Positions 2,829-26,573 of a stretch of DNA of 26,573 nucleotides are shown piece by piece. The stretch comes from a virus. The number at the start of each line of letters is the position of its first letter. The stretch's first letter is position 1. The stretch spans positions 1 through 26,573 of the IMG/VR virus record IMGVR_UViG_3300037117_000244, one strand, 5' to 3'. The notes below the pieces were generated by a model. The model saw only the letters and a list, made by a program, of their open reading frames with translations. It was not told the DNA's origin and made no database searches. Position numbers and translations under genes: made by a program.

Positions 2829-2846
2829 GGTCTTTTCGCCGGTAAA

Positions 2847-3122
2847 TTACGGGGTAATCGACAGGCTGACGTTCTGGTAAGCCCCAGCCTTCGTGGTGTA
2901 GCCCTCGGACCCCATGTGTCCACTCGCGCTCACTGAAACAGTCTTTTGTGGGTCAAACGTCCCAAGGCATTGTTCAATCGTCTCGGCAATTAGCCGAACC
3001 GTCTCGCGTTCGCCATCGTCATTCAATCCGGCAGGCTTCTCGGCCAGCGGGCCTTTGAACTGTTCACTAAGTCGCCCACGAACTTCTGCGGGGGTTCCGG
3101 ATGCGCTTACACTCCAAGACAT
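2847..3122 (-). CDS. Small phage protein of unknown function
   Basis: A 91-aa protein that I do not recognise. The N-terminus (MSWSVSASGTPAEVR) and C-terminus (VSVSASGHMGSEG) both carry a V-S-A-S-G segment, so it may be a small beta-rich protein with a central helix (ETVRLIAETIEQCL). The ATG at 3122 has an AAAGAGGAAC ribosome-binding site. It lies between the tail tube gene and the sugar module. Position suggests a tail-associated or assembly role, which is inference only. Confidence 0.7.
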   Translation of the reverse strand: MSWSVSASGTPAEVRGRLSEQFKGPLAEKPAGLNDDGERETVRLIAETIEQCLGTFDPQKTVSVSASGHMGSEGYTTKAGAYQNVSLSITP

Positions 3123-3134
3123 AGTTCCTCTTTT

Positions 3135-3165
3135 CTGGCTACTGACAACTGGCTACTGGCTACTG
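3135..3165 (+). repeat. Heptamer repeat tract 1
   Basis: Four consecutive heptamers (CTGGCTA, CTGACAA, CTGGCTA, CTGGCTA) plus a trailing CTG fill the short gap between the tail tube stop and the ribosome-binding site of the next gene. Confidence 0.9.
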
Positions 3166-3173
3166 CCCTGCCC

Positions 3174-4319
3174 TTAGTGGCTGCTGCTGCTGCTCGACGA
3201 GCTGCTCGAACTGCTGCTACTCGACGAGCTGCTTGAACTGCTCGATGAGGAGCTGCTGCTGGAGCTGCCCTCCTCGTCCACCCCGGTCAGATATGACGGC
3301 ACGGAATTCTGCACGGTCGCACTCAGCGCATCCACCGGACTGTCCCCCACAACTTTCAGGGCCGAAGTCTCGTCCACCTCGATGTCCCAGATCACCATGT
3401 TGCCGTCGACCCCGATCTTGTTGGTCTTCAGCTTGAACTTTGGGATCGAGATCCCGAGGATCGAAGGCAGCAGCCCCGAGGTGGTGGTGATGTCCATCTT
3501 GGCCATGGTGTCGTTGTTCATCAGGGTGCGAACGTCGTCGGTGTCTTTGGCGGCGATGCGCGCCTGCAACGAGAATTTGCGCAGCCCGGTGCGCATGAAG
3601 ATGCCGAACTTGCCGCCGCCGGGAGTAACGTGGCTCACCACTCCGGAGGAGATCTTCAGCGTCGCCGACATGAAGCGGCCGGTGTAGTCGGCCAGGCTTC
3701 CCGCAAAGGGAGCCAAGCGAAACACCGTGTCGGAATTGAGCAGGTAGGCGTTGGTGGGCAGCGCAGGCAGCGACGCCATGGCTTCGTCCAGCCAGCGGCC
3801 GGTGCTGATCAGCCCTACCTCGAAGCCCACTGAGCCTTTGGCCGTCCAACTGATAGTGACATCACTGACCGCGAAGTCCGGATACTTGGTCTTCACGTCG
3901 TTGGTGTCTGCCATGTAGATGTTGGTCATCTTCGCCTGCGTGGTGCTTTCGTCGAAGGCGATGGCGTGGGTGAACGGCGGGAACAGGCTGCTGGAGCTGC
4001 TGCTGCCAGCGGTGACCACCTCTTTGCCCATGACGAGGGCCAGCGCCCAGCCAGCGATAAAGTCATTCATCTCGGCCTTCAGGCTGCCCTTCAGGTCCCA
4101 GTTGGTGAGCTGGTTGTCGGTGGCGAACTCAGTGCCCTTGCCCGACATGTCCTTGTCGGTGCGGCGCGTGGCTGCCAGTTCGAAGATGGCGCCCCCATCG
4201 AAACGCTGGCGGCGGGTTAGGCTGGCGTCGGCGAAGATCTCGCCGGCAGCAATCTGGCAGTAGGGGCTGATCACCAGCTCCCGTGCCGATTTTTTCTGGG
4301 ATTCAAAAGCACCTGCCAT
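3174..4319 (-). CDS. Phage tail tube (major tail) protein with C-terminal poly-Ser tail
   Basis: Predicted to polymerise into the tail tube of the virion. The 381-aa protein opens with MAGAFESQKKSARELVISPY. Its RFDGGAIFELAATR segment and later Thr/Ser-rich beta segments (SDVTISWTAKGSVGFEVG, IPKFKLKTNKIGVDG) fit siphovirus tail tube proteins, as does its position after head-tail joining genes. The remarkable part is the C-terminus: Gly, 29 consecutive Ser (coded at 3180-3266), His, stop. The serines use AGC, TCG, AGT, TCA and TCC, so this is not a simple codon microsatellite. A second run of six Ser lies at residues 106-111 (3987-4004), probably a surface loop. Start: ATG preceded by AAGGAG. 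Tail tube is my best call; a sheath protein is less likely because no separate tube gene is seen. Confidence 0.72.
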   Translation of the reverse strand: MAGAFESQKKSARELVISPYCQIAAGEIFADASLTRRQRFDGGAIFELAATRRTDKDMSGKGTEFATDNQLTNWDLKGSLKAEMNDFIAGWALALVMGKEVVTAGSSSSSSLFPPFTHAIAFDESTTQAKMTNIYMADTNDVKTKYPDFAVSDVTISWTAKGSVGFEVGLISTGRWLDEAMASLPALPTNAYLLNSDTVFRLAPFAGSLADYTGRFMSATLKISSGVVSHVTPGGGKFGIFMRTGLRKFSLQARIAAKDTDDVRTLMNNDTMAKMDITTTSGLLPSILGISIPKFKLKTNKIGVDGNMVIWDIEVDETSALKVVGDSPVDALSATVQNSVPSYLTGVDEEGSSSSSSSSSSSSSSSSSSSSSSSSSSSSSH

Positions 4320-4320
4320 G

Positions 4321-4671
4321 TTATTTCTCCTTCACCGCCGCGATCGCGGGGTGGCGTTGCACTCCGAATTCAGGGGGAAGCCCCGGACCCATCACTGGGC
4401 CATGGGCCGGGTGAACCACAACTCGCGCCGAACTGGACGAAGACGAGGTCGCAGGCGCTGCTGCTGCCGTCAATTCAAGAATGGGCTGGCCCTGGAAGCG
4501 TTCGTTCTTGAGCAGCACGTTCCACTCGTAGGCTTTAGTCACGCGCTGCGATTGGCCAACCACAAACACGAAGCTGCCACGCCCGGCGGTAATGCGCACC
4601 TGTCCACCGGTGCCAGCCATCTTCACTCCGGCGGCGCTCAACTGAATGTGGACAAAATCCTCGCCTGCCAC
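4321..4671 (-). CDS. Tail-region protein with Ser6 run, unknown function
   Basis: A 116-aa protein with no family I recognise. It starts with GTG directly after the upstream TAA, with AAGGAG eight bases before it. The first 60 residues look like a compact beta domain (FVHIQLSAAGVKMAG, GSFVFVVGQSQRVT). Then come an Ala-rich linker, six consecutive Ser (coded at 4429-4446 by TCG, TCT, TCC and AGT) and a Pro/Gly-rich C-terminus. It sits immediately upstream of the tail tube gene, so a small tail or neck component is plausible. Confidence 0.65.
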   Translation of the reverse strand: MAGEDFVHIQLSAAGVKMAGTGGQVRITAGRGSFVFVVGQSQRVTKAYEWNVLLKNERFQGQPILELTAAAAPATSSSSSSARVVVHPAHGPVMGPGLPPEFGVQRHPAIAAVKEK

Positions 4672-5154
4672 TTACGACTCCTTCGCCCCGGGGAACTGCG
4701 CGATCCCCGGCACTACAACATGCACGATGTAAACCATCCCAAACGGGATGGCAATGAAGTCTGTCACCCGCCAGATGCGCACTGGCTCAGAGCTCGAACC
4801 ATCACTCAACGGCAGCCGCGCTCCCGCCATGCGCGCCAGCACCAGCCCGGCCAGATCAACCGAGTCCTGACGCTGCTCCGTTTTGCCGCGCAGGTTTTCG
4901 ACGTAGCACCACAGCTCGATGACGTGTTGCACATCCTGATAATTGAGCTGCTGGTTTTCGTCGCTCTTGTACACCGGGCTCCCGGCATAGCGCGTACGCA
5001 CCATCGGCTGGTCAAAGACGAGCTCGTCGTCGTCGTTGATCTCCAGCTCGCCGATCGAGCCGATGTTCAGCGGCGTACCGTCGCCCAGGGTCAAGCCTTG
5101 CAGCAGATCCTCGATCGCGGCTACCGCATCGCCGGGTAGAAATTGGGAGGCCAT
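4672..5154 (-). CDS. Putative head-tail joining / tail terminator protein
   Basis: A 160-aa protein that I cannot assign by motif. It has a helical N-terminus (AVAAIEDLLQGL), an acidic stretch (ELEINDDDELVFD) and a central segment QHVIELWCYVENLRGK. A short DGSSSEP serine run lies before a hydrophobic C-terminal strand region. Gene order (virion morphogenesis protein, small basic protein, this gene, unknown gene, tube) matches where siphophages carry tail terminators or minor joining proteins. That role is inference from position. It ends with TAA abutting the GTG of the next gene. Confidence 0.6.
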   Translation of the reverse strand: MASQFLPGDAVAAIEDLLQGLTLGDGTPLNIGSIGELEINDDDELVFDQPMVRTRYAGSPVYKSDENQQLNYQDVQHVIELWCYVENLRGKTEQRQDSVDLAGLVLARMAGARLPLSDGSSSEPVRIWRVTDFIAIPFGMVYIVHVVVPGIAQFPGAKES

Positions 5155-8031: not shown

Positions 8032-8502
8032 CTAGTGGCTGCTGCTCGAGGAGCTGCTCGAACTGCTGCTGCTCGAAGAGCTGCTGCTGCTGGAGCTGCT
8101 GCTCGAAGAGCTGCTGCCATAGAACTCGGTGACCTTGGCGAGGATGTAGTCATTCGCATTCGAGCCCGAGCTGAGCGCCTTGGCCACGATGTTGTCGGTG
8201 ACTGCGGCAGTCGGGATCACCCGGCCGCTGCTGTCCGTCTTTAGGAACTGTCCGATGGTGATAGCCGCGCCAATCTTGGCGATGAACTCGCCGTCCTCGA
8301 TGATCGAGATGGGATCTTCGGCGCTGATCGTGCTCTCCTCGATGAACCCGATCACCGGGACGTTGGCGCCAGCGATCGCCACATGCTCGTCATCGGTGAC
8401 GGGCACTACCGCCAGACCGCGAGTCATACTGGCCGCGCCGGCGTGGTAGGTCCGCTTCTGCGGGTTACCGATTACGCCTTTGGTTGAGACTGCGAGTGTC
8501 AT
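8032..8502 (-). CDS. DUF2190-like capsid decoration protein with C-terminal poly-Ser tail
   Basis: The first 125 residues fit the small capsid cement/decoration family (DUF2190-like): TKGVIGNPQKRTYHAG, MTRGLAVVPVTDD, VIGFIEE, then GAAITIGQFLKTDSSGRVIP and a closing YILAKVTEFYG. The C-terminus is Gly, 26 consecutive Ser (8038-8115), His, stop. All six serine codons are used. The same Gly-Ser(n)-His ending occurs on the tail tube protein. Start is ATG at 8502 with AGGAGAAACGACG before it. Decoration proteins cover the outer shell, so the tail should be displayed on the virion surface. Confidence 0.75.
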   Translation of the reverse strand: MTLAVSTKGVIGNPQKRTYHAGAASMTRGLAVVPVTDDEHVAIAGANVPVIGFIEESTISAEDPISIIEDGEFIAKIGAAITIGQFLKTDSSGRVIPTAAVTDNIVAKALSSGSNANDYILAKVTEFYGSSSSSSSSSSSSSSSSSSSSSSSSSSH

Positions 8503-8547
8503 CGTCGTTTCTCCTGGCCGCGATCGGCGCGGCTAAAACTTTCTTGA

Positions 8548-8585
8548 CTGGCTACTGGCTACTGACTACTGACTACTGACAACTG
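8548..8585 (+). repeat. Heptamer repeat tract 2
   Basis: Five consecutive heptamers (CTGGCTA twice, CTGACTA twice, CTGACAA) plus CTG sit in the gap between the protease/scaffold stop and the decoration gene ribosome-binding site. This matches the location type of tract 1. Confidence 0.92.
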
Positions 8586-15583: not shown

Positions 15584-15710
15584 AGGCTCACCTCGCTTTC
15601 TCCGGCTTCATGGTCCGGGCCAGGGGAACAGGCTGCTTTACGCGGACAGAGAAGCCGGAGGACCCCGTCTGTCGCAAACCTGTTCCGCTGGCTCAGACCA
15701 CTTCATTGGC

Positions 15711-15730
15711 CGGGAGCCCGGAGGCTCCCG
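15711..15730 (-). terminator. GC-rich hairpin, terminator-like without T-tract (copy one)
   Basis: CGGGAGCC and GGCTCCCG pair as an 8-bp stem around a 4-nt loop. It lies downstream of the 92-aa gene in the direction of transcription but has no following T-run, so it may be an attenuator or RNA-stabilising structure rather than an intrinsic terminator. Confidence 0.35.
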
Positions 15731-15965
15731 AGACAATGGCTCTGGCGATTCTCCGCGACCTCCTTTCCTCACTGAATTACAGTTTGGCCGGGGCTGCAGC
15801 CGCAGTTTTTTTCTTGAACAGCGAAAACAACGTGAAGGCCAACGGCACCAGGCTCGATGCCAATTGCGCGGCAGCCATGGAATCTTGCTGCTTTACGCGG
15901 ACAGAGAAGCCGGAGGACCCCGTCTGTCGCAAACCTGTTCCGCTGGCTCAGACCACTTCATTGGC

Positions 15966-15985
15966 CGGGAGCCCGGAGGCTCCCG
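15966..15985 (-). terminator. GC-rich hairpin, terminator-like without T-tract (copy two)
   Basis: Identical to the hairpin at 15711-15730, shifted by the 255-bp duplication. It lies about 50 bp downstream of the stop of the 92-aa gene. Confidence 0.35.
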
Positions 15986-16031
15986 AGACAATGGCTCTGG
16001 CGATTCTCCGCGACCTCCTTTCCTCACTGAA

Positions 16032-16310
16032 TTACAGTTTGGCCGGGGCTGCAGCCGCGGTTTTTTTCTTGAACAGCGAAAACAACGTGAAGGCCAACGG
16101 CACCAGGCTCGATGCCAATTGCGCGGCAGCCATGGAATCTTGCTGCACGGTGGTGTCGCTGCTCTCGGCTGCCACTCCGGCGCCGAGTGCCTGCAGCACC
16201 TCCTGGGTCGCAGCAACGTGGTCTGTGCTGTACTGCTGCAGCGCTGGGGTTATCACTTGGGCGATCTGCGCCCCCGTCGAGATCTTCTGTAAGAGCGTTG
16301 CGAAGTCCAT
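16032..16310 (-). CDS. Small membrane-associated protein, 3' end duplicated
   Basis: A 92-aa protein starting MDFATLLQKISTGAQ, mostly helical, with one hydrophobic segment near the C-terminus (LASSLVPLAFTLFSLF, about 65-80) followed by KKK and an Ala/Pro tail. ATG at 16310 has AGGAAGG seven bases upstream; the longer in-frame ORF was rejected for that reason. A single C-terminal helix with a positive flank could anchor it in the inner membrane. It could be a holin-like or tail-anchored protein. Its last 36 or so codons lie in the 255-bp duplication. Confidence 0.65.
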   Translation of the reverse strand: MDFATLLQKISTGAQIAQVITPALQQYSTDHVAATQEVLQALGAGVAAESSDTTVQQDSMAAAQLASSLVPLAFTLFSLFKKKTAAAAPAKL

Positions 16311-16439: not shown

Positions 16440-16481
16440 CAGTTGTCACTTGCCAGTTGTCAGTTGCGAGTTGTCAGTGGC
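16440..16481 (+). repeat. Heptamer repeat tract 3
   Basis: Six consecutive heptamers in the CAG orientation (CAGTTGT, CACTTGC, CAGTTGT, CAGTTGC, GAGTTGT, CAGTGGC). The tract supplies the stop codon and last residue of the 95-aa membrane protein gene. Confidence 0.88.
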
Positions 16482-16761
16482 CGGGGGCGTTCATCACAAT
16501 CAGGGCTACGATGGCGGCGAGGACAATCACCCCAGCGACAACGAGGGCAGAAGTCCATCCTTCATTCGGAGCCCGGGCATCACTGCCGGTCGGCGGCGGG
16601 TCGGGGACGTTACTCTCAGAGATAAGCGGGAGCTGCATCGGAGCGCGGCCATTCTGCTTCACCAGCGTCTCCAGCAGGCCGCGGATAGCGAAGAGCTGGC
16701 ACTGGGCAATGATCATCACGATGCAAACGATGAAGGCAACTAAATAGATGACGAGATCCAT
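16474..16761 (-). CDS. Small two-helix membrane protein
   Basis: A 95-aa protein with an N-terminal helix (LVIYLVAFIVCIVMIIAQC, about 3-21) and a C-terminal helix (ALVVAGVIVLAAIVALIVM, about 72-90), joined by a Pro-rich hydrophilic loop. ATG at 16761 has AAAGGACG upstream. Two helices with a short loop fit a holin or similar lysis-related protein, but no partner endolysin is seen. Its stop lies within a heptamer tract. Confidence 0.65.
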   Translation of the reverse strand: MDLVIYLVAFIVCIVMIIAQCQLFAIRGLLETLVKQNGRAPMQLPLISESNVPDPPPTGSDARAPNEGWTSALVVAGVIVLAAIVALIVMNAPGH

Positions 16762-17814: not shown

Positions 17815-18186
17815 TTACCAGCAAGCGGCAGGCGAGTCGGCTTTCGGCTTCTTACCGTGCGGCTGGGCAGCACGTCTCTTGTCAGCCTCGGCGACGGCGC
17901 GCGCTACGCGTTGGGGATCGATGCCAGCAGCCGACCAAAAGTAGATTGCCTGTTCAGGGTCAGGGGCTATGTCCCCCATCCTTATGTAATTCTCAGCGGA
18001 GGGCGGGTTGTCGCCGTTCTCCCAGTTCCACACTGACTGGCTGGTCAGTGGCCTTCTTTTCCTGCCAAGGAAGTGCTGGGCGAACTCGCTCGGGGCCAGC
18101 CCGAGTGACTCGCGCAAATGCCGGATTCGCGCCCCGCGTTCCCGTTTTGCAACTTTTTGGGCAGGGCTATCTTTTTCACTTGACAT
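17815..18186 (-). CDS. XRE-family HTH repressor, likely immunity repressor
   Basis: A 123-aa protein from the ATG at 18186, with a basic HTH domain at residues 19-62 (RIRHLRESLGLAPSEFAQHFL, then SQSVWNWENGDNPPS, the typical XRE recognition helix and ENG turn). A helical C-terminus ends in a Lys-rich tail. It is divergent from the Ner-like gene, the usual place for the phage repressor. No Shine-Dalgarno is seen before this ATG. The longer ORF upstream is rejected because it runs across the divergent promoter. Its start codon abuts the -35 of the rightward promoter. Confidence 0.8.
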   Translation of the reverse strand: MSSEKDSPAQKVAKRERGARIRHLRESLGLAPSEFAQHFLGRKRRPLTSQSVWNWENGDNPPSAENYIRMGDIAPDPEQAIYFWSAAGIDPQRVARAVAEADKRRAAQPHGKKPKADSPAACW

Positions 18187-18206
18187 TGCGTCAGTGCGAC
18201 TGTAAT
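18180..18206 (+). promoter_or_regulatory. Rightward early promoter (TTGACA, 15 bp, TGTAAT)
   Basis: A perfect -35 (18180-18185) and a five-of-six -10 (18201-18206) separated by 15 bp. Transcription would begin near 18213, about four bases before the ATG of the Ner-like gene, giving a nearly leaderless message. The spacing is shorter than the optimal 17, so it may depend on an activator. The -35 ends next to the repressor start codon. Confidence 0.55.
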
Positions 18207-18248
18207 GTGCTGCTGTATGAGCAACACTGTTGCGCGCATCCGCACTGA
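18191..18248. promoter_or_regulatory. Candidate operator repeats in the divergent switch
   Basis: TCAGTGCG (18191-18198) and CGCACTGA (18241-18248) are exact inverted copies flanking the -10 and start of the Ner-like gene. Between them is the palindrome GCAACA-C-TGTTGC (18221-18233). These are likely binding sites for the repressor or the Ner-like protein. Assignment of protein to site is not possible from sequence. Confidence 0.45.
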
Positions 18249-18435
18249 TCGTAGCCAACGCCGGACTTTTAGTAAAGCCATCCTCTATCAGGGAATCCTG
18301 TCCCGCGTCGCCCAACGGTTGGGGCTGAGCCGCTCGCATGTTTACCGCATCGCGATCGGCCAGCGGCAGAGCAGCCGCGTAGAAGCGGCCCTGCTGGCCG
18401 AGATGAAGAAGATCGAGCGGAAGTGCGCTGCTTAA
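18217..18435 (+). CDS. Ner/Cro-like HTH regulator
   Basis: A 72-aa basic protein with an HTH at residues about 27-46 (GILSRVAQRLGLSRSHVYRI) and a C-terminal helix (ALLAEMKKIE). It is the first gene of the rightward arm, in the position of Mu ner. I use the ATG at 18217; an ATG at 18205 overlaps the -10 and is rejected. It likely represses the divergent promoter region. The palindrome at 18221-18233 lies within its first codons, so it may autoregulate. Confidence 0.72.
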   Translation: MSNTVARIRTDRSQRRTFSKAILYQGILSRVAQRLGLSRSHVYRIAIGQRQSSRVEAALLAEMKKIERKCAA

Positions 18436-18473
18436 CACGCGGTAGATGATGCGGTGGTTGTGCCGCAAAATCA

Positions 18474-18920
18474 ATGGACAATAGCCCCAAAAGATTGACC
18501 CCGGAACGCCAGCTTGCCCTGCTCGAAGCAGCCGACGCCGAAGCCTCCGGAAGTATGAACGATGGGGCGCTCATCCGGGGACTGCTGGTAGAAGCCATCC
18601 GCAACAGCGATAAGAGCCGCGCCCAGATTGCCGACGAGATGACGCGACTGGTGGGCCGCGACGTTACCGAGCGGATGTTGAACGCCTATACCGCCGAATC
18701 CAAGGAAGAACACCGCTGGCCAGCCGAACTGACGCGATCATTTTGCTCCGCCACCGGCGATGACCGCCTGCTGCGCGTGCTGGCTGAAGCCGCCGGGCTG
18801 CGCGTGATCAACGCCTCCGAAAGCCGTCTGCTGGAGTTGGGGCGCAACCATTTGCAGCGCTCGCGTGCCGAGCGCGCCATCACCACGCTGGAGCAACGCC
18901 TGGAAGGAACTGCCCTATGA
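18474..18920 (+). CDS. Phage regulatory protein, HTH-like
   Basis: A 148-aa protein with an N-terminal helix (TPERQLALLEAADAEAS) and a central HTH-like part (KSRAQIADEMTRLVGRDVTERMLNAY). Next comes TRSFCSATGDDRLLRVLAEAAG, an arrangement seen in phage regulators of the CII/toxin-control type. A C-terminal charged helix ends the protein. I recognise the layout but no specific family. ATG at 18474 lacks an obvious ribosome-binding site. It begins the tightly overlapped operon. Confidence 0.6.
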   Translation: MDNSPKRLTPERQLALLEAADAEASGSMNDGALIRGLLVEAIRNSDKSRAQIADEMTRLVGRDVTERMLNAYTAESKEEHRWPAELTRSFCSATGDDRLLRVLAEAAGLRVINASESRLLELGRNHLQRSRAERAITTLEQRLEGTAL

Positions 18921-19246
18921 GGCTCCAACCTTTTCTTAATGCTGCGCGCGTCGCTGCGATCGTTTACCTCGGAGGCCGCCCGCGATTTCACCCCAATCCC
19001 AACGAGGTGGCGCGGAGGATGTACCCCACCCGCGTTCGATTCAAGCGTGAACACAGCGCCGTCCTCGTGAAAGTAGCGGAGGAGCTCGGCATTACGATCA
19101 GCACCGTTTCCGCCGTCGTGGACGGCGGCAGTTCGGTCCGCGTACAGCAGGCGTTAGAGCGCGAGTTCCGCGCTGCCGGGATCGATTGGGCGTGGGAGCC
19201 GAGATGGCAGCGCCAACAGCGTGCCCGAGAAGGAGCACCGCAATGA
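18917..19246 (+). CDS. LacI-like HTH small protein
   Basis: A 109-aa basic protein with a clear HTH near residues 52-80 (SAVLVKVAEELGITISTVSAVVDGG), resembling the DNA-binding helix pair of LacI-type proteins. No ligand domain is present. ATG overlaps the upstream stop as ATGA. It probably acts as an early transcription regulator. Confidence 0.6.
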   Translation: MRLQPFLNAARVAAIVYLGGRPRFHPNPNEVARRMYPTRVRFKREHSAVLVKVAEELGITISTVSAVVDGGSSVRVQQALEREFRAAGIDWAWEPRWQRQQRAREGAPQ

Positions 19247-19389
19247 CCTGGCTCCCCTTGTTCCTCCTCGCGGCCATGGGCCGCCGCCCCGACCTGATTT
19301 TCCCCATGATCGCGCTGGTGTTCGTCTATGGCGCGAACCTCTCACTCTTCTCCTTTATAGCCCGCAACTGGAAAGGCGACATCTTATGA
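19243..19389 (+). CDS. 48-aa two-helix membrane peptide
   Basis: Starts MTWLPLFLLAAMGRRPD with a short hydrophobic helix, then a second (LIFPMIALVFVYGANLSLF, about 17-35), and ends with a basic IARNWKGDIL. ATGA overlaps on both sides support translation. It lies directly before the M50 protease gene and could be its partner or substrate. That is inference from adjacency. Confidence 0.6.
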   Translation: MTWLPLFLLAAMGRRPDLIFPMIALVFVYGANLSLFSFIARNWKGDIL

Positions 19390-19799
19390 CGACACTGCTG
19401 GCTGTGCTGGGCGCGGTTGCGCAACTGCTCGCTTGCTGGATGCTCGCCATGGTGCTCCATGAATGCGGTCACGTTGCGACCGCGCTCGCGCTGGACGTGA
19501 AGGTGCTGCGCGTGGGCGTTCGCTGGCGCGGCCTGTACACCATGTTCCAAACGGACACGCCGCTGCGGACCTTTCTGATCATCCTGGCCGGCCCGCTCTC
19601 CAACCTTCATCTGGCGCTGATTTTCGCCGGGCGCCACTGCGAGGTGTTCGTCTTCTTCAATCTGCTGAACGGCGTCGCCAACCTGTTGCCCGTTCCCGGC
19701 AGCGATGGATGGCAGGCGGGAAAAATCGTAAAGCAGTTTCTCCCGCCGCGGCGGGCAAGTTTCCGGTTTCGAGTAAAAGCTGCTGGAGGCGCGCGATGA
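19386..19799 (+). CDS. Miniature M50-type (site-2-protease-like) membrane metalloprotease
   Basis: A 137-aa membrane protein carrying the three hallmarks of peptidase family M50: HECGH (HExxH zinc site, His25, Glu26, His29) at the end of the first helix; LAGPLSN (67-73, the GPxxN motif) in the second; and NLLPVPGSDG (99-108, the N..P....DG motif supplying the third zinc ligand Asp107) after the third. Such proteases cut substrates within the membrane. It is far shorter than typical family members. The start overlaps the preceding gene as ATGA, and it lies between regulators and the transposase. Its phage role is unknown; release of a membrane-held regulator is one possibility. Confidence 0.85.
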   Translation: MTTLLAVLGAVAQLLACWMLAMVLHECGHVATALALDVKVLRVGVRWRGLYTMFQTDTPLRTFLIILAGPLSNLHLALIFAGRHCEVFVFFNLLNGVANLLPVPGSDGWQAGKIVKQFLPPRRASFRFRVKAAGGAR

Positions 19800-19957
19800 C
19801 TATGCCGTGGTGGTTACGTTTCCGAGGGATGTATCTCGCCTATTGCATGCTCCGGCTTGAGCGAGAAGTGCAACGGGCCAAGATCCAACTCCGCCTCGCG
19901 CTGGAAGAAAACCAAAACCTCAAGTGGATGGCCGCGCGAAAAAAGGGCAACCACTAA
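19796..19957 (+). CDS. 53-aa basic peptide with amphipathic helix
   Basis: Starts MTMPWWLRFRGMYLAYCML, then a long charged helix (REVQRAKIQLRLALEENQ) and a basic end. The N-terminus is aromatic and hydrophobic and may touch the membrane. ATGA overlap with the protease gene; its TAA is followed directly by the next ATG. Function unknown. Confidence 0.55.
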   Translation: MTMPWWLRFRGMYLAYCMLRLEREVQRAKIQLRLALEENQNLKWMAARKKGNH

Positions 19958-20167
19958 ATGAGCTTTCCGGCCACAGAAGAAGATGCGCGGGCGCAGGGCT
20001 ACAGCTTCGCCTACCGCACGACGTATCTGTTCTGCGATGCGCCGATCCGTTTTTTCAAGACGCCGAAGGGGAACTTCATCGCGGTGGACGCGGGACGAAA
20101 GTTCGAGCGCCACAACTGCCTGGGCGCGTCGGCTGAGGCGGAGATGTTGGGAAAGGCGGCATCGTGA
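19958..20167 (+). CDS. Small phage protein, degenerate zinc-ribbon-like
   Basis: A 69-aa protein with FCDAPIRFFKTPKGNFIAVD followed by HNC. This matches the pattern of small phage zinc ribbons (C..C-A-P-I..., T..G....D, HfatC) but keeps only one cysteine of the first pair. It may therefore have lost metal binding. ATG directly follows the previous TAA. Function unknown. Confidence 0.55.
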   Translation: MSFPATEEDARAQGYSFAYRTTYLFCDAPIRFFKTPKGNFIAVDAGRKFERHNCLGASAEAEMLGKAAS

Positions 20168-20403
20168 GCCAGGTTGATCTCGATCTCGCGACCTTCAGCA
20201 AACGGCTGGCGGCGCTTGAGCTGAAGCCGAAGTCGCTGGAGCGCACCAGGCAGGCACTGGCTGATCTGACGATCGAGATGCTCGAGTGCCTCCCGGGCGT
20301 CACCGTGGCGCCCAACAGTAAGTTCTATGTGAAAGGGGTGCTGTTGGCGCTCCTGGATCGTGCCGCAGAGTTTGAGCCGATGGAGAAAGGACGGCCGCAG
20401 TGA
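20164..20403 (+). CDS. Small helical phage protein
   Basis: A 79-aa protein that I do not recognise. Helices ATFSKRLAALELK and RTRQALADLTIEMLECL are followed by a hydrophobic SKFYVKGVLLALLDRAAEF. Start is GTG in a GTGA overlap with the preceding gene. Function is unknown; early operon position suggests a role in replication or host takeover. Confidence 0.55.
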   Translation: MSQVDLDLATFSKRLAALELKPKSLERTRQALADLTIEMLECLPGVTVAPNSKFYVKGVLLALLDRAAEFEPMEKGRPQ

Positions 20404-21029
20404 AGTTCATGCGCAAAGCCGACCTCCCAGCAAAGCATTTGTGCCGCGCCTGCGGAGAGGAGAAGGTCCTCGACGAGATGATCTTGATTCACCGCCGCAG
20501 CGATTGGGCTTGGCTGCTGCGATCGCGCTGCAAGGATTGCAACAACAAACATGAACGCGGCCATCGCCGGAAATGGAAAACCGCCTACCTGCGCGGCTGG
20601 CGCTTCCGCAACCCGGAAATCAGCGAAGAGTACTGGCGCAAGCGCAACGAGAAAGACCGCGCTGTAATCAATCTGCGCGCCTACTGCCGCTTCCGGCGCG
20701 AGCACGGCGCCATCCTGATTCAAGGCCGGATGCGGCGGCATGGTTTTCGTATCAGCCTGGTGGAAGCTAAGCGGCTGTTGAAGCGGTTTGGCCGCTGCTA
20801 CCCCTCGCGCTTCGGCCTGACGCCAGGCGGCCTGAGAGAAGCCGAGCGGCTGCGTGCTGGGCAGCGCCGGAGCGGGAAGAAGATGTTCTCGCTCTTCGAA
20901 ATTCGGATGATGGTCTATGAAGATGGCCACTTCATCAGGCCCTCGCGCCAGCCGGTGCCGTACAAGCGATCGTCGGAGAGACTGCGGTCCTGGCAGGCGA
21001 ACCGGAGACAAGAAAGGTTGGCGGCGTGA
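20400..21029 (+). CDS. Basic zinc-finger protein, possible nuclease
   Basis: A 209-aa Arg/Lys-rich protein. N-terminal zinc motif CRACGEEK (about 15-22) and CKDCNNKHERGH (about 44-55) give a four-Cys arrangement like small endonuclease-VII/HNH-type zinc domains, with His residues after the second pair. The remaining part is very basic (about 57-209) and probably binds nucleic acid. GTG start overlaps the upstream gene. No complete HNH catalytic set is visible, so nuclease activity is uncertain. Confidence 0.6.
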   Translation: MKFMRKADLPAKHLCRACGEEKVLDEMILIHRRSDWAWLLRSRCKDCNNKHERGHRRKWKTAYLRGWRFRNPEISEEYWRKRNEKDRAVINLRAYCRFRREHGAILIQGRMRRHGFRISLVEAKRLLKRFGRCYPSRFGLTPGGLREAERLRAGQRRSGKKMFSLFEIRMMVYEDGHFIRPSRQPVPYKRSSERLRSWQANRRQERLAA

Positions 21030-22888
21030 GCGAGCGCGACCTATCTCCGATGGCTGAGACGTTCGCCCTCTCCTGCTCGCCGGCGCCCGAGCCGAAGAAC
21101 GAGTCGCTGCAACTGGCAACTGGCAACCGCCTACTGGCTACTGCTCACAAAGTTTCCCTCTCCCCCGAAGAAGAAGCCCAGTCCACTGCCCGCCTCGCGA
21201 TCATTCAGCCGCTGGTTGACTTCGAGCTTGACCAGGGCATCGTAGTCCGCGGGCAACTTCATCTCGACTTGGGGCTCCGCCTGGCGGATGGCCGCCGCGT
21301 GACCAACGCCACTCGCATGGTCGAGTACCTGGCGCACACGCACGAACTTTCAGAGAGCACGCTGTGGGGCTGGTATCGCGCCTATCGCAAGCACGGCAAG
21401 TTTGGCCTGGCGCGCGACACGCGCGCCGACAAAGGCAAGTCGCATTTCTTCGAGCACCATCCCAAAGCTGCAGCGGTGGCGGCGGCGCTCTATCTCGATC
21501 AGCACCGGATGGGCATCCAGGGCATTCATCGGCTGCTGCTGCAACAGCGCAAGGTGCTGCACATCGCCGACGCCGATCTGCCGGGCTACGGCACCGTGTC
21601 CCGATGGCTGAAGACTTGCCGGGAGATCACCCCGGCCATGCGCATCATGGCGCGCGACGGATTGCGCGAGTACGAGAACCGCGTGGCCCCGTACATGTCG
21701 CGCGGCTACAGCGATATTTTCGCCAACCAGATCTGGGTTTCTGACCATAAAATCTGCGACGCCGAAGTCCAAAATGATTGCTTCCTCGGGCTGCCGTTCG
21801 GGACGCCAATGCGCATGCGCTTCAGCGGCATCATGGACATGCGCTCGCGCAAGATGCTGAGCTTCGCCTTCTGCGTGGAAGGCAGTTCGATGTCGATCGT
21901 GACGGCGATGCGGCCGGCGCTGCTGAGCTACGGGCCGCCGGAAACTTTCTACGTCGATAACGGCCTCGACTACCGCAAGGTAGGCCGCGAGATTTGTCCG
22001 CTGCTCGGTATCGCGCCGCAGTTCTGCATGCCGTACCACGGGCAATCGAAAAACATCGAGCGGCAGTGGCGCACCATGAAAGAGCACCTGGAACTGCTGT
22101 TCGCTACCTATACGGGGGGCAAGCCCGAGCTGCGCCCCGATGCCACAGTGGTGGAGATGGCGCGCCATCGCAAGCTGCTGCGGCTGGGCGCGCCGCAGAT
22201 GTCGGCGCATCCCACGGCCAGCTACTTCATCCGCATCACCGCGGCCTGGGTCGACGAGTACAACTCCACCCCCGGACACCGAGGCCGCGGCATGGACGGG
22301 CGCAGCCCCAATCAAGTTTTCTGGGACTGCCCCAATCCGGCACAGCGTCCGCCGTTTGAGCCCGCCGAGCTGGTGAAAACTTTTGTGGAACGGCAGCAGC
22401 GCAAAGTGCGCGAGTGCGCGATCACGCTGGAGAACCGGCGCTACATCGGGGCCGACAGCGTGGCGGCGCGCATCCTGCACGATCGCTCAGGCTCGGATGA
22501 CGAGAACAACGACGTGATCGCCACCTACGACGCCAACGATCCCGAGCATGTCGCGGTGCTCGATATGGAAAACAATTTTCTGTGCTGGGCCAAGCCCGAG
22601 CAGTTGCTGCCGCACTCGGCGGCGGCCAAGCCTGCGATCGCGCTGGCCGTTGCCGAGCGCCGCCGGCTGCGCAATGGGACGCAGGACGCCATCGGCGAGA
22701 TCCAGCGCCTGGCGGCGGCGACCGGCGCCAGCAGTCCGCTGGAACTTTTGGAGCAGAAGGCGCGCGCCAATCCAATTGACCCGCGCGAATTCGTGAGCCA
22801 GCGGGCGCAGCGCTTGCGTCCCGACAACGCCGGGGCGGCCCCCACCTCAGCAGCGGAAGCGGCACGCCGGTTCTTAGAGGAGGACTAA
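21026..22888 (+). CDS. DDE transposase (MuA/TnsB-like)
   Basis: Catalyses integration and replicative transposition of the phage genome. The 620-aa protein has an N-terminal helix-turn-helix region (MVEYLAHTHELSESTLWGWY) for end binding and a RNase H-like core with Asp240 (IWVSDHKICDA), Asp311 (FYVDNGLDY) and Glu345 (KNIERQWRTM). A Mu-type C-terminal beta-barrel (LENRRYIGADSVAARI) and an Ala-rich tail follow. The second Asp to Glu spacing is 33 residues, closer to TnsB/retroviral integrases than to MuA. Residues 28-40 (LQLATGNRLLAT) are coded by a heptamer tract. Start is GTG at 21026 (GTGA overlap); an ATG at 21050 is an alternative. Confidence 0.93.
   Translation: MSERDLSPMAETFALSCSPAPEPKNESLQLATGNRLLATAHKVSLSPEEEAQSTARLAIIQPLVDFELDQGIVVRGQLHLDLGLRLADGRRVTNATRMVEYLAHTHELSESTLWGWYRAYRKHGKFGLARDTRADKGKSHFFEHHPKAAAVAAALYLDQHRMGIQGIHRLLLQQRKVLHIADADLPGYGTVSRWLKTCREITPAMRIMARDGLREYENRVAPYMSRGYSDIFANQIWVSDHKICDAEVQNDCFLGLPFGTPMRMRFSGIMDMRSRKMLSFAFCVEGSSMSIVTAMRPALLSYGPPETFYVDNGLDYRKVGREICPLLGIAPQFCMPYHGQSKNIERQWRTMKEHLELLFATYTGGKPELRPDATVVEMARHRKLLRLGAPQMSAHPTASYFIRITAAWVDEYNSTPGHRGRGMDGRSPNQVFWDCPNPAQRPPFEPAELVKTFVERQQRKVRECAITLENRRYIGADSVAARILHDRSGSDDENNDVIATYDANDPEHVAVLDMENNFLCWAKPEQLLPHSAAAKPAIALAVAERRRLRNGTQDAIGEIQRLAAATGASSPLELLEQKARANPIDPREFVSQRAQRLRPDNAGAAPTSAAEAARRFLEED
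21107..21143 (+). repeat. Heptamer repeat tract 4, inside transposase gene
   Basis: CTGGCAA, CTGGCAA, CCGCCTA, CTGGCTA and flanking partial units lie in the coding sequence of the transposase N-terminal linker, read in frame as LQLATGNRLLAT. Confidence 0.85.
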
Positions 22889-22914
22889 TGGCTAAGAGAG
22901 GAGCAAGACTGTGA
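22888..22914 (+). CDS. 8-codon mini-ORF bridging transposase and ATPase genes
   Basis: ATG GCT AAG AGA GGA GCA AGA CTG TGA encodes MAKRGARL. It has GAGGAGG upstream, its ATG overlaps the transposase TAA, and its TGA overlaps the GTG start of the ATPase gene. It may serve translational coupling rather than make a functional peptide. Confidence 0.4.
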   Translation: MAKRGARL

Positions 22915-23957
22915 GCCACCGAAATCCCTATGGACCTATCCCCCAGAACGACCGCGCGGTGCGCGCCGAGGCCCTGAAGCTATCGGCCCGCGAGAGTGGC
23001 CAGGTGCGCACCCGGCTGCAAGATTACCTCGCCTGTACTGGCCTGGCTGAAGCCGACTTCGCCAGCCGCATCAACTACGCCGCATCCTCACTACACCTGT
23101 TCTTGCGCGGCCGGTACGAGGCGGTGTCGGGTAACTCCCGCCCGATCTGCCAGGGCATCACCACTTTCATCGATGCCCATCCCATTGCGCCAACCACCGC
23201 GGCTTATGGCGAACTCTTTGATACCAGCAACGTCCGCGCTATGCGGCAAATCTTTCAGCAGTTGCTGCAGCGGCCGGTGGCTTACATGATCTATGCGCCG
23301 CCGGGCTCGCAGAAGAGCTTTGTGCTGGAGCATTTGGTGGCGGAGCTGAACCGCAAGGAATTGTCGCGCAACGGCGCCGGGCGCCGCGCCTACTACGTGG
23401 ACGCTGATGTGGACATGCGGCCCACCGGGATCATCAAGGAAGTGGCCACGGCGTGCGGCATCTCGTCGGTGGGCGATCGGGTGCGCTTGCGGCGCAACCT
23501 GGCGTTCGAGTTTCAGGGGCGGCGCGCGCTGCTGGTGGTTGACGAAGCGCAGCACTTGTCGCTGCCCTGCTTTGAAGCGCTGCGCATCCTGCTGGACCGA
23601 CCACCCCACTTCTCGCTGCTGTTTGCCGGGTCGCATGACTTGAAGCAAACCTTCGACCGCTTCTCGGCGACGCTGGAGCAATGGAATTCGCGCATCCTGG
23701 CCAAGATCAGGTTGCCAGGGGTCGAGCGCGCCGAGGCGGAAGCGATTGTGCGGCGGGAGCTGGCCGGCGAGTTAGGAGAGATGCCCCCAGACAAAGCGCG
23801 CAAGAAAATTGACAAATTGATCAGCGACGCGGATGCCCAGGACGCCTTCGAGTTGGACGCCAAGCGGCAGCCGCGGCACTACATCAACGTGCGCACCCTA
23901 ACCAACTCCATCGAGCAAATCAAGATGGCGCGCGCCGAAGCGCAGGAGGCAGTGTGA
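22911..23957 (+). CDS. AAA+ ATPase, transposition target selector (MuB/TniB-like)
   Basis: A 348-aa partner of the transposase that would bind target DNA and stimulate strand transfer. It has an N-terminal HTH (RINYAASSLHLFLRGRYE, about 53-70), Walker A APPGSQKS (129-136), Walker B LLVVDEAQH (207-215) and LLFAGSHDL (sensor I). A C-terminal region (RQPRHYINVRTLTNSI) follows. The Walker A has Gln134 in place of the usual Gly before Lys135. Start is GTG at 22911 with GAGAGGAG upstream. It follows the transposase as B follows A in Mu. Confidence 0.9.
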   Translation: MSHRNPYGPIPQNDRAVRAEALKLSARESGQVRTRLQDYLACTGLAEADFASRINYAASSLHLFLRGRYEAVSGNSRPICQGITTFIDAHPIAPTTAAYGELFDTSNVRAMRQIFQQLLQRPVAYMIYAPPGSQKSFVLEHLVAELNRKELSRNGAGRRAYYVDADVDMRPTGIIKEVATACGISSVGDRVRLRRNLAFEFQGRRALLVVDEAQHLSLPCFEALRILLDRPPHFSLLFAGSHDLKQTFDRFSATLEQWNSRILAKIRLPGVERAEAEAIVRRELAGELGEMPPDKARKKIDKLISDADAQDAFELDAKRQPRHYINVRTLTNSIEQIKMARAEAQEAV

Positions 23958-24118
23958 ACAAACAGTTGCCAGTAGCCAGTAGCCAGTTGTCAGTGAATAC
24001 CGACCGGATCGACCGCTGGGCCCAGCCGCTGTGCACCGCGCTGCTGATCCTGGGGGCGTCTTACGTTGTGGGACACCTGTTTTATGCCGCGTGGATGGGA
24101 AGGCTGGTGGTGCGATGA
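23954..24118 (+). CDS. 54-aa single-helix membrane peptide
   Basis: Starts with GTG (GTGA overlap with the ATPase gene). Residues 4-14 (QLPVASSQLSV) are coded by heptamer tract 5. The C-terminal half is hydrophobic (LCTALLILGASYVVGHLF), followed by WMGRLVVR. One membrane helix with a basic end. ATGA overlap with the next gene. Function unknown. Confidence 0.55.
   Translation: MNKQLPVASSQLSVNTDRIDRWAQPLCTALLILGASYVVGHLFYAAWMGRLVVR
23963..23997 (+). repeat. Heptamer repeat tract 5
   Basis: CAGTTGC, CAGTAGC, CAGTAGC, CAGTTGT, CAGTGAA: CAG-oriented heptamers within the first codons of the 54-aa membrane peptide gene. Confidence 0.9.
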
Positions 24119-24348
24119 ACTGGCTACTGAGAACCGGCTACTGGCTACTGAAGTGCTTCGGCTGTTCGCATCCGCAGCTGTCGCGGGTGTTCACCATGGG
24201 CAAGCCGCCGACGAAGCGCAGCTATCAGGTGTGTCTGGAATGCGGCGCCGAACTGGACTACGACCTGGTCGCCATGCGGCTGACCGGCGCCGACTCGAAA
24301 CTGGCCCGCCGCGGCGGGCGAAACTTGAAACTTGCGAGGGGAAACTAA
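24115..24348 (+). CDS. Small cysteine-rich protein with heptamer-coded N-terminus
   Basis: A 77-aa protein whose first residues (MNWLLRTGYWLLK) come from heptamer tract 6 and form a hydrophobic patch. It continues with CFGCSHPQ and VCLECGAEL, two CxxC pairs likely to bind zinc. The C-terminus (GGRNLKLARGN) contains a different 7-bp repeat (GAAACTT twice at 24320-24333). ATGA and TAATG overlaps at its ends support translation. Function unknown. Confidence 0.6.
   Translation: MNWLLRTGYWLLKCFGCSHPQLSRVFTMGKPPTKRSYQVCLECGAELDYDLVAMRLTGADSKLARRGGRNLKLARGN
24120..24150 (+). repeat. Heptamer repeat tract 6
   Basis: CTGGCTA, CTGAGAA, CCGGCTA, CTGGCTA and a trailing CTG make up codons 2-12 of the small cysteine-rich gene. 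Orientation is opposite to tract 5, which lies about 120 bp upstream. Confidence 0.88.
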
Positions 24349-24641
24349 TGAGCAAACCCAAGAAAGTCCTGACCACCGAAGAGAGCGTGGCTAAATATCT
24401 GCGTATCCGTGAACTGGGCAAGCACTGCTACGAGCAGGCCGATGTGATCTTGAAGGACCTCATCCTCGGCAAGCTGCTGCGGGTCGGGAGGCCGGTGCAG
24501 CTCGCCAACGGCGAGAGCTGGGTGCTGAAGAACCTGTACACCCGGAAGACCATGCAGGTGTTCCGCTCCCATGCCATCCGCCACTACGAGCTCGACCTGG
24601 TGAAGCCGCCAGCTAAGAAGGCGAAGAAGAAAGGCAAGTAG
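24348..24641 (+). CDS. Small basic phage protein
   Basis: A 97-aa protein with a helical N-terminus (ESVAKYLRIRELGKHCYEQAD), a middle VQLANGESWVLKN segment and a Lys-rich tail. I see no family motif. ATG overlaps the upstream TAA (TAATG) with GAGGGG before it. Likely an early accessory protein; not a recognisable Gam protein. Confidence 0.55.
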   Translation: MSKPKKVLTTEESVAKYLRIRELGKHCYEQADVILKDLILGKLLRVGRPVQLANGESWVLKNLYTRKTMQVFRSHAIRHYELDLVKPPAKKAKKKGK

Positions 24642-24869
24642 ATGGCGGACCGCAAACCGAAACCGAAACTGCAGCGCAGTGCTGCAAAAGTTGCAGCCGC
24701 AGGCAACGGCAATGGCGGCAGCTCGCAGCGCGTCTATGGGGAAAGCGGCGAGCGCTGCGGTGCGACGCTGGTGGTGACCGAGGAGCAGCTCGATCACATG
24801 TTCGTGAGCTGGCCGCTGGAAGACAAGCTGATGTGCGTCCAGCTCTGGCTCGACCGATTGGAGGCGTAA
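24642..24869 (+). CDS. Small phage protein
   Basis: A 75-aa protein with a basic, Gly/Asn-rich N-terminus and a helical C-terminus (TEEQLDHMFVSWPLEDKLMCVQLWLDRLEA). Unknown function. ATG directly follows the preceding TAG, and its TAA overlaps the next ATG. Confidence 0.55.
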   Translation: MADRKPKPKLQRSAAKVAAAGNGNGGSSQRVYGESGERCGATLVVTEEQLDHMFVSWPLEDKLMCVQLWLDRLEA

Positions 24870-25288
24870 TGGCTGCCGAGCTCTCACTCTACTCAGAGGT
24901 GAACCTGCAGGCGCACATCGACGATGTCCTGTTCGGGCGCGCCGGACCGTGGCCGCTCAGCGATAGCGAACGCAAGGTGCTGCACATGCTGCGCTATCGC
25001 CAGGGCGCGGCGAATGCCCGGCCGCTGGCCGAGCTGGCTAGCGAGCTGCAGGTGCAGCCGCGCTGGGTGAAGGCACTCGTGAAGAGCCTAATCGAAGATT
25101 TCGGGTTGGCTATTGGCGCAACCCGCCAGGAGCCGTATGGCTACTTCCTGTGCGTGACGCCGGGCGACATTGAAGACGCCATCCGCCCGCTGGTGCACGA
25201 GATTGTGTCGCTGGCGCGCCGGGTGCGCATGCTGGGCGGACCGGAACGAGTGGCTGAGATGTTTGGGCAGCTGCAATTGGAGAAGTGA
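24869..25288 (+). CDS. Winged-helix phage protein
   Basis: A 139-aa protein with LSDSERKVLHMLRYRQGA, then LAELASELQVQPRWVKALVKSLIEDFGLAIG, and a wing leading to YGYFLCVTPGDIEDAI. This is the pattern of winged-helix domains common in phage replication or regulatory proteins. A C-terminal helix (VHEIVSLARRVRML) follows. ATG at 24869 (TAATG overlap). It may regulate middle or late genes. Confidence 0.65.
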   Translation: MAAELSLYSEVNLQAHIDDVLFGRAGPWPLSDSERKVLHMLRYRQGAANARPLAELASELQVQPRWVKALVKSLIEDFGLAIGATRQEPYGYFLCVTPGDIEDAIRPLVHEIVSLARRVRMLGGPERVAEMFGQLQLEK

Positions 25289-25560
25289 TGGCGATGGCAA
25301 GCTTCGTAGAAGTGACAGATCACAAACACCACTGGGCCGCGAGCGGCTGTTACTGCGGCGCCATCCAATGCGATTACCGAACCCCGCGCACGACGACGCC
25401 GGCAGCCGGAACGACTGGCCGCACCGCGATGGCCGGATACAAATTCACGCGCAAGGTCCGACCGGTAGTCGTGCTGACCGACCGCTGCACCGAGGCGACC
25501 TTGGGGCCGAGCCCGTACTGTGAGGTGCATACAGGCATCGTGGAGTTGAAACACGCATGA
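25288..25560 (+). CDS. Small Cys/His-containing phage protein
   Basis: A 90-aa protein with HKHHWAASGCYCG, CDYRT, then later DRCTE and YCEVH. The spread of Cys and His suggests metal binding but does not match a family I know. ATG overlaps the upstream TGA (TGATG) with GGAGAAG before it. Unknown function. Confidence 0.55.
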   Translation: MAMASFVEVTDHKHHWAASGCYCGAIQCDYRTPRTTTPAAGTTGRTAMAGYKFTRKVRPVVVLTDRCTEATLGPSPYCEVHTGIVELKHA

Positions 25561-25934
25561 GAACAAAGCTGGCAAAACGCGAAGGGCAGCGCGGCGTGTT
25601 CCGCGCCACGTTCCAGCGCAAGGGACATCGCACCAACCAGTGGGGCACGATGCAGACGGCGCTGCTGGTGGACGTGCGCGACGAGTCGGGAGCAGTGGTG
25701 GCCGACCATGTGTGGTTCATTTGGGGCGACCGCATGCGGGCGCTGCAGTTGAAGCCCGGCGACCAGATCAGGTTTGTGGCGACGGTAGCGCCGTACTTCA
25801 AGCGCGCCCATGATTTCGATTGGACGGATGGCGACGTCGAGTTCGAAAAAGACTATCGCCTGCTCTATCCCAGCAACATGCGGCTGTTGGGCGGCAGCGC
25901 CGGCGTTGCCTTTATTCGGGGATTACATACTTGA
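25557..25934 (+). CDS. OB-fold-like phage protein, 3' end formed by cassette repeat
   Basis: A 125-aa protein with beta-rich segments GVFRATFQRKG, ALLVDVRDESGAVVADHVWF, and LKPGDQIRFVATVAPYFK that suggest an OB-fold. Its last codons (after VAFIR) and stop lie in the left inverted repeat of the inserted segment. The original C-terminus was therefore probably different. If the segment is removed at the direct repeats, the frame runs on into the downstream ORF at 26358. Confidence 0.6.
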   Translation: MRTKLAKREGQRGVFRATFQRKGHRTNQWGTMQTALLVDVRDESGAVVADHVWFIWGDRMRALQLKPGDQIRFVATVAPYFKRAHDFDWTDGDVEFEKDYRLLYPSNMRLLGGSAGVAFIRGLHT

Positions 25935-25944
25935 CTCGCTGTTG
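25922..25944 (+). repeat. Left 23-bp inverted repeat of cassette
   Basis: ATTACATACTTGACTCGCTG plus TTG; exact reverse complement of 26306-26328. It includes the stop codon of the upstream gene. Confidence 0.9.
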
Positions 25945-25993
25945 GCTTAACCCATAACCCGATTCGAGCTAAGGCTGAAATCACAGGAGGAAT

Positions 25994-26299
25994 ATGGAAA
26001 AGATAACAGCGGAACTGAGGGTTACAACCCTAAAAGTGCAACCGTTCTCCTACCGCGACGGAAAAGGAGAAATGGTAGGCGGGGAGTCGCTAGAGATGCG
26101 GGCGGCAGGTTTCTGGATTGACGATATCCAGAATCACTACCCGGTCTCGTTACACGCGACGGTTTACCCCGGTCACGGCGTTGTGCCAGCGATTGGTGAC
26201 TGCGTGCGGGTCACTGTCGAACGCCTGGACGATGCTAGCCAGCGGGAGTACGGCGAACGGATGGAAAAAGAGAAGGTCTCTGTAGAGCGCAGCAATTAA
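25994..26299 (+). CDS. Cassette-borne protein of unknown function
   Basis: A 101-aa protein (MEKITAELRVTTLKVQPFSY...) rich in beta segments, with LHATVYPGHGVVPAIGDCVRVTVERL possibly forming an OB-like barrel and a charged C-terminal helix. It has its own strong AGGAGGAAT site before ATG 25994, unlike its coupled neighbours. It is the only gene between the inverted repeats and uses more AT-rich codons. Function unknown. Confidence 0.65.
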   Translation: MEKITAELRVTTLKVQPFSYRDGKGEMVGGESLEMRAAGFWIDDIQNHYPVSLHATVYPGHGVVPAIGDCVRVTVERLDDASQREYGERMEKEKVSVERSN

Positions 26300-26305
26300 G
26301 TGGCT

Positions 26306-26328
26306 CAACAGCGAGTCAAGTATGTAAT
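26306..26328 (-). repeat. Right 23-bp inverted repeat of cassette
   Basis: Exact reverse complement of 25922-25944, beginning seven bases after the cassette gene's stop codon. Confidence 0.9.
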
Positions 26329-26357
26329 TCCTCTTTATTCGATCAGCAGGAGGCAAC

Positions 26358-26534
26358 ATGACGGTGCACCTTGAACTCTATAGCGCCGGCGAGCGGGTCA
26401 TCACGGAGACCTCGCGCGTCACCGTGCGTAGTCACCTGCGGCTCCCCGTGTTGGTGATCGGCACGCGGGGCAGCCGGGACTTTGAGCAAATCCCGATGGC
26501 GAAGATTGAATCGTTTTGGGTCGAGGAGGATTGA
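26358..26534 (+). CDS. 58-aa protein downstream of cassette
   Basis: MTVHLELYSAGERVITETSR begins a small, probably beta-rich protein ending ESFWVEED. ATG at 26358 has AGGAGG four bases upstream. It is in frame with the upstream 25557 gene across the direct repeat, so it may be either an independent gene or the separated C-terminal part of that gene. I cannot decide between these. Function unknown. Confidence 0.55.
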   Translation: MTVHLELYSAGERVITETSRVTVRSHLRLPVLVIGTRGSRDFEQIPMAKIESFWVEED

Positions 26535-26540
26535 CGAAAG

Positions 26541-26573
26541 CAGTTGTCAGTAGCCAGTCGTCAGTATCCAGTT
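26541..26573 (+). repeat. Heptamer repeat tract 7, running off right edge
   Basis: CAGTTGT, CAGTAGC, CAGTCGT, CAGTATC and a partial CAGTT follow the stop of the 58-aa gene and reach the window end. Confidence 0.9.

Follow-up and report, generated by a model that had tools for sequence, protein, structure and literature searches.

The 415-bp unit at positions 25918-26332 of the window (the entire virus record IMGVR_UViG_3300037117_000244, 26,573 bases) is very probably a transposase-less transposon of the IS1595 family, that is, a mobile insertion cassette that is mobilized in trans. Specifically, its matching terminal inverted repeats are of the GG-starting kind that bounds members of this family (20 of 22 positions at both ends), it is flanked by an A+T-rich 8-bp target-site duplication (CTTTATTC, 8 of 8 bases), and, as in mobile insertion cassettes, a cargo gene stands between insertion-sequence ends with no transposase beside it. 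A DDE_Tnp_IS1595 transposase is absent from the unit and present in elements with like ends; because the window element has none, we class it as an IS1595-derived cassette rather than as an IS1595 insertion sequence. In the mechanism we propose, both 22-bp ends would be bound by an IS1595 transposase produced outside the element, most likely in the bacterial host, and the 415-bp unit would have been inserted through a staggered cut of 8 bp in A+T-rich DNA, in this case CTTTATTC. Translation of the cargo gene, which is co-directional with its neighbors, would probably start from the gene's own ribosome-binding site, on a read-through transcript. We infer the mobilization in trans, the transposase responsible for it, and the expression and function of the cargo from sequence.

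The boundaries of the element follow from its own repeats and from those of its relatives. The initial annotation had described a perfect 23-bp inverted repeat within a range of 23 to 26 bp, and we recovered both lengths, with the perfect arms (Table 1) reaching 26 nt with one mismatch (25919-25944 and 26306-26331). It had also given a 9-bp direct repeat, of which the nine shared bases are indeed present (CTTTATTCG, 25910-25918 and 26333-26341), but the duplication proper is 8 bp long: related elements start with GGG and have 8-bp duplications, which here fixes the duplication as CTTTATTC and the element as the 415-bp unit, and the ninth shared base is coincidental. The terminal inverted repeats, GGGGATTACATACTTGACTCGC and AGGAATTACATACTTGACTCGC, are 22 bp long; the left end starts with GGGG and the right end with AGGA, the very first base differing on the right. 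Each scores 20 of 22 against the IS1595-type consensus GGGAATTACATACTTGACTCCC, compared with at most 15 of 22 elsewhere in the window and 16 of 22 in shuffled sequences; the position weights used for searching took in the window's own ends, whereas the consensus comparison is independent of them. For a direct match of 8/8 bases at a given position, the probability is about 2e-5. Further, the G+C content of the element (53.0%) is below that of the window (61.2%) and of the left flank (63.7%), in agreement with the lower GC first ascribed to the enclosed gene, and the element holds only one open reading frame, the 101-aa gene, which has its own AGGAGG, again as initially described. A recent insertion is plausible, given the intact ends and the exact duplication.

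Table 1. Coordinates of the cassette, its insertion site, and related features (window positions unless a locus is named)
Feature	Position	Strand	Remark
MuA-like transposase of carrying phage	21026..22888	+	not an IS1595 enzyme; context
MuB-like AAA ATPase of carrying phage	22911..23957	+	context
Upstream gene	25557..25934	+	3' end now runs into the element and stops there
Left target-site duplication copy, CTTTATTC	25910..25917	.	register taken from 8/8-duplicating relatives
Left terminal inverted repeat, GGGGATTACATACTTGACTCGC	25918..25939	+	20/22 against IS1595-type consensus GGGAATTACATACTTGACTCCC
Perfect 23-bp inverted repeat, left arm	25922..25944	.	
Conserved leader around CGATTCGAGCTAAGGCTGAAATC	25958..25982	+	possible small hairpin; folding weak
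Ribosome-binding site AGGAGG	25985..25990	+	
Cargo gene, 101 aa, beta-rich protein	25994..26299	+	relatives in three other phages; AlphaFold2 model
Perfect 23-bp inverted repeat, right arm	26306..26328	.	
Right terminal inverted repeat, AGGAATTACATACTTGACTCGC	26311..26332	-	20/22 against consensus GGGAATTACATACTTGACTCCC
Right target-site duplication copy, CTTTATTC	26333..26340	.	
Downstream ORF, 58 aa, own AGGAGG	26358..26534	+	in frame with upstream gene after element removal
Same-cargo cassettes	L003 2918-3251; L005 11334-11697; L007 about 4660-5017		

The carrying virus is, judging by its MuA- and MuB-like genes, a Mu-like phage. Window positions 17994-26469 are 100% identical to the compared part of contig PLBW01000019.1 (L013, isolate palsa_254), which was binned into an Acidobacteriaceae genome, and the phage-host link rests on that binning. 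Immediately upstream of the insertion, each of three successive ORFs (24833-25288, 25285-25560, and 25557-25934) shares 4 bases with its neighbor, so that the cassette does interrupt a tight gene chain, as had been proposed. The expectation that excision would fuse the flanking frames into one of about 184 codons likewise held: once the element and one repeat copy are taken out, 184 codons can be read through without a stop. The target could have been one gene or two abutting ones, given that the downstream ORF comes with an AGGAGG and a start of its own. The insertion model predicts an empty junction, GTTGCCTTTATTCGATCAGCAGG, with a single CTTTATTC. No empty site was found in a close relative, and a scan of the viral contigs with the upstream gene gave no relative of it. 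A relative of the upstream gene in another Acidobacteriaceae genome (G019; 48% identity over residues 2-114) was rejected as an empty site, as a different gene lies downstream of it. Elsewhere, the window holds a 255-bp unit with a tandem duplicate at 99% identity and repeated ORF segments (15632-16146), two predicted proteins with long C-terminal serine tracts (3174-4319 and 8032-8502, minus strand), and short degenerate CAGTTGTCAGTAGCCAGT-type repeats (8547-8585, 16440-16482, 23970-24150, and 26541-26572).

The window element has counterparts, with other cargos, in other viruses. The phage that carries one of the same-cargo cassettes (G004, the L007 phage) contains a second repeat-bounded unit (L029, viral contig IMGVR_UViG_3300043100_000006, 16944-17840), which has ends GGGAACTATATAnnTAACTCCC, the duplication TAAATTAG, and two ORFs, for an 83-aa zinc-ribbon-like protein and a 186-aa protein. 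Scanning viral contigs with the GGGAACTATATAnnTAACTCCC motif returned 26 stretches, mostly paired and with exact 8-bp duplications. A second search, for the motif TACATANNTGACTCSCT, which resembles the window's ends, returned 45; about one-third of these were units some 300-600 bp long that have GGGAATTACATACTTGACTCCC-like ends and, for the most part, 8/8 duplications. Counting only elements with such ends and a duplication of at least 7 of 8 bases, both scans together yielded 26 distinct viral elements, the window's included, of 296-1950 bp (median 557); the duplications are 86% A+T and match at 8/8 in all but one (25 of 26). A reversed motif gave 0 elements, and shifted flanks gave 0 of 312. 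Ends identical at 20 of 22 positions bound elements with exact 8-bp duplications in other viral contigs, bearing out the original reading, the insertion of a small cargo-bearing element that has no transposase of its own. The exact 18-base window end had no match in the viral contigs because the ends vary, and an inverted repeat in L047 (5480-5980) was set aside as a related unit, having other ends and no clear gene.

Transposase sequence is full-length in two of these 26 elements (L059 and L071), fragmentary in two (L058 and L081), and absent from 22; as the elements were found by an end search, these counts are a biased census of cargo-only versus autonomous forms. In the phage collection, only 2 of 50,697 records match the IS1595 transposase. 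The L071 unit (2206-4050) is an apparently complete IS1595 element, with a 307-aa transposase (DDE_Tnp_IS1595 at 4.7e-44 and a zinc ribbon; PF12762 and PF12760) followed by a Mom-like DNA modification gene (PF25680 at 1.6e-13; phrog_1384 at 2.3e-22). In L081, where a methyltransferase-like gene lies next to it, all that is left of the transposase is the first 120 residues and the last few; this unit is intermediate between autonomous and cargo-only forms and illustrates how internal deletion could give rise to the latter. The cargos of the viral units include a C5 cytosine methyltransferase (Dcm) and a D12 adenine methyltransferase, both in L079, a Dam in L117, methyltransferase-like genes in L073 and, more weakly, in L067 and L081, a cysteine-dioxygenase-like gene (L088), and the conserved phage protein phrog_12600 (L096, 6.3e-72). 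Rough ORF calling suggests that most cargos are co-directional with their neighbors.

Candidate sources of a trans-acting enzyme are common in the family of the binned host, with transposase matches in 189 of 300 Acidobacteriaceae genomes. Three loci (L126, L127, and L128) hold complete elements that have the family's ends and are flanked by 8-bp duplications, the L128 ends being GGGAATTATATACTTGACTCCC, and their transposases are 93%, 89%, and 69% identical to P0004, respectively. Together with the viral L059 and L071, they are the predicted transposase-bearing elements with window-like ends, and all carry IS1595-family transposases; none was found with exactly the window's end, the closest ends being 1-2 bases off consensus. 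At up to two mismatches, the end consensus occurs in 10 of the 300 genomes, the binned host being counted via the window phage, and one of these genomes (G201) has a 307-bp unit with end AGGAATTACATACTTGACTCCC and a 7/8 duplication. The binned host itself has six IS1595 transposase matches and an element (C162) with ends GGCAATTATTTACTTGACTCC and CTAATTAC repeats on both sides. The suggested search of the host for the terminal repeat was therefore borne out in part: related IS1595 elements are there, but no further copy of the exact end is. The host transposases make a trans-acting enzyme plausible. In another Acidobacteriaceae genome (G176), GGGAATTATATACTTTACTCCC, exact or slightly varied, occurs about 25 times; many of the listed copies are close to the end of a contig, where a multicopy element that disrupts the assembly would be expected to lie.

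The cargo protein is beta-rich in its AlphaFold2 model (mean pLDDT 78.8, moderate confidence). Comparison with Pfam and PHROGs gave no significant family, a protein search of phages and plasmids gave nothing significant, and a structure search of the model against the PDB gave nothing at E <= 0.001, the only resemblance, a weak one, being to single-strand-binding and MCM beta domains. Relatives of the cargo were found in three viral contigs (L003, 124.7 kb; L005, 176 kb; L007, 102 kb), compared with which the window protein is about 22 residues longer near its end, with a second VSVERS-like motif thereafter (26230-26299). The initial annotation had noted that related phages carrying the same gene without inverted repeats would speak against an insertion; in all three, the gene lies between inverted repeats of about 20-23 bp. 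It is also preceded in each by the strongly conserved leader CGAGCTAAGGC, an 11-base core that does not vary among the four cassettes that carry this gene, within a pattern, CGATT(n)CGAGCTAAGGCyG, that holds the same place upstream of the ribosome-binding site; RNA folding gave no consistent fold of the leader across the four. Among other candidates, a match at 30% identity in L014 was discarded, as it falls inside a long RecB/AddB-like gene without matching repeats, and leader-motif matches in L004, L006, and L008 are due to chance, with no cargo gene or matching repeats. When open frames were compared with six-frame translations, the cassette was the only thing in common between the window and G002 (the L003 phage) and between G002 and G004; the window and G004 shared it and a terminase-like gene at 31% identity. 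Given how little else these phages share, the cassette has moved between hosts-of-cargo that are otherwise unrelated or only distantly related, namely the phages compared here. Two cargo peptide patterns searched in 84,980 bacterial and archaeal species genomes returned only the binned phage copy and one chance match, and a cargo peptide search of 398 Acidobacteriaceae genomes returned only the binned copy of the window phage.

These three same-cargo cassettes bear on a different explanation, in which the inverted repeats are, or have become, a conserved mRNA or single-stranded DNA stem and the unit spread by homologous or illegitimate recombination, rather than by transposition. The cassettes of L003, L005, and L007 have neither GG tips nor duplications, yet their arms match within each cassette (23/23, about 20/23, and about 18/20, respectively) while differing from one cassette to another. 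In L003, moreover, all six departures from consensus are identical in both arms, which rules out independent decay. Simple transposition would not account for such tip-less but matching arms; possible causes are a transposase with other ends and a duplication that went unseen, correction of one arm by the other at replication, or selection for pairing. For the window cassette, however, tips close to the consensus and an exact duplication stand against a stem spread by recombination, as do the 25 other viral elements that combine other cargos with like ends and duplications, and we regard it as improbable.

A variant of transposition deserves more weight, namely that the element did transpose in but is now fixed, its transposase having been lost from the host and its gene being kept for its function. 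The absence of another copy of the exact window end from the binned host genome and the immobile appearance of the tip-less relatives both fit such a history, but the near-intact ends and exact duplication point to a recent insertion or a unit that is possibly still competent, and the host has several IS1595 transposases; we therefore consider fixation possible but doubtful. A gene cassette of the integron type, mobilized through site-specific recombination by a recombinase, would share with the window element the single gene per unit and has a precedent in the integron cassettes reported in phages (PMC9892861). This reading is disfavored and highly improbable, since the gene here is flanked by repeats on both sides, with ends that match IS1595 and an 8-bp target-site duplication, as opposed to a one-sided attC without duplication. 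Nor is the unit a MITE, for it is not non-coding: its 101-aa gene has relatives and is preceded by a ribosome-binding site. Finally, the repeats could be the product of chance in a G+C-rich phage genome, and the highest of 100 dinucleotide shuffles did contain a 22-bp perfect inverted repeat, probably owing to the low-complexity tracts of the window; yet the mean longest repeat in the shuffles was 13.7 bp, and the end sequence, the duplication, and the relatives agree with one another, the relatives in effect refuting chance. A transposase-less IS1595-family cassette remains our preferred reading.

Single extra genes between phage genes are mostly attributed to illegitimate recombination. Here, the units that hold such genes have exact transposon ends and duplications, at 24 viral loci from only two pattern scans. 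On balance, we lean toward the view that cargo-only cassettes derived from IS1595 offer environmental phages a general means of acquiring single genes between existing ones and of exchanging them, using a host transposase in trans, and that, given Dcm, D12, Dam, and Mom cargos, some would be movable anti-restriction modules. If true, the acquisition of morons by phages would gain a defined mechanism. Movement in trans, if it occurs, would also open the acquisition of single genes by phages to direct tests, with the end motif as a simple search handle. The small size of the cassettes would fit a packaging limit.

Several known systems frame these observations. The IS1595 family, described by Siguier, Gagnevin and Chandler in 2009 (as cited in PMC3129680 and PMC12561309), is known for GG-tipped ends, 8-bp duplications, and passenger genes (PMC8101967, PMC12561309). 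The window element has the same GG-tipped inverted repeats and A+T-rich 8-bp duplication, and its relatives with like ends encode the zinc-ribbon and DDE_Tnp_IS1595 transposase of a family in which passenger genes are known; it differs in that it lacks a transposase and resides in a phage. According to PMC9600943, which cites Leclercq and Cordaux (2011), transposable elements are rare or absent in phages. DNA transposons have colonized the genome of Pandoravirus salinus, a likeness that, going by the account in PMC4495683, concerns a eukaryotic virus. The integron gene cassettes of phages (PMC9892861) are likewise single mobile genes, with predicted DNA methyltransferases among them, but differ in mechanism and ends, whereas the window element has two-sided inverted repeats and a target-site duplication. 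Closest in design are the transposase-less mobile insertion cassettes, already known from MIC231 of Bacillus cereus (De Palmenaer 2004, as presented in PMC3129680), in which insertion-sequence ends likewise surround a cargo gene, with no transposase and with movement expected in trans; MIC231, as described there, has IS231 ends, whereas the window element has IS1595 ends, a phage location, and a phage-type cargo. By structure, the window element is an ordinary mobile insertion cassette, and what appears new is that it occurs in a phage and that the set carried by phages is so large.
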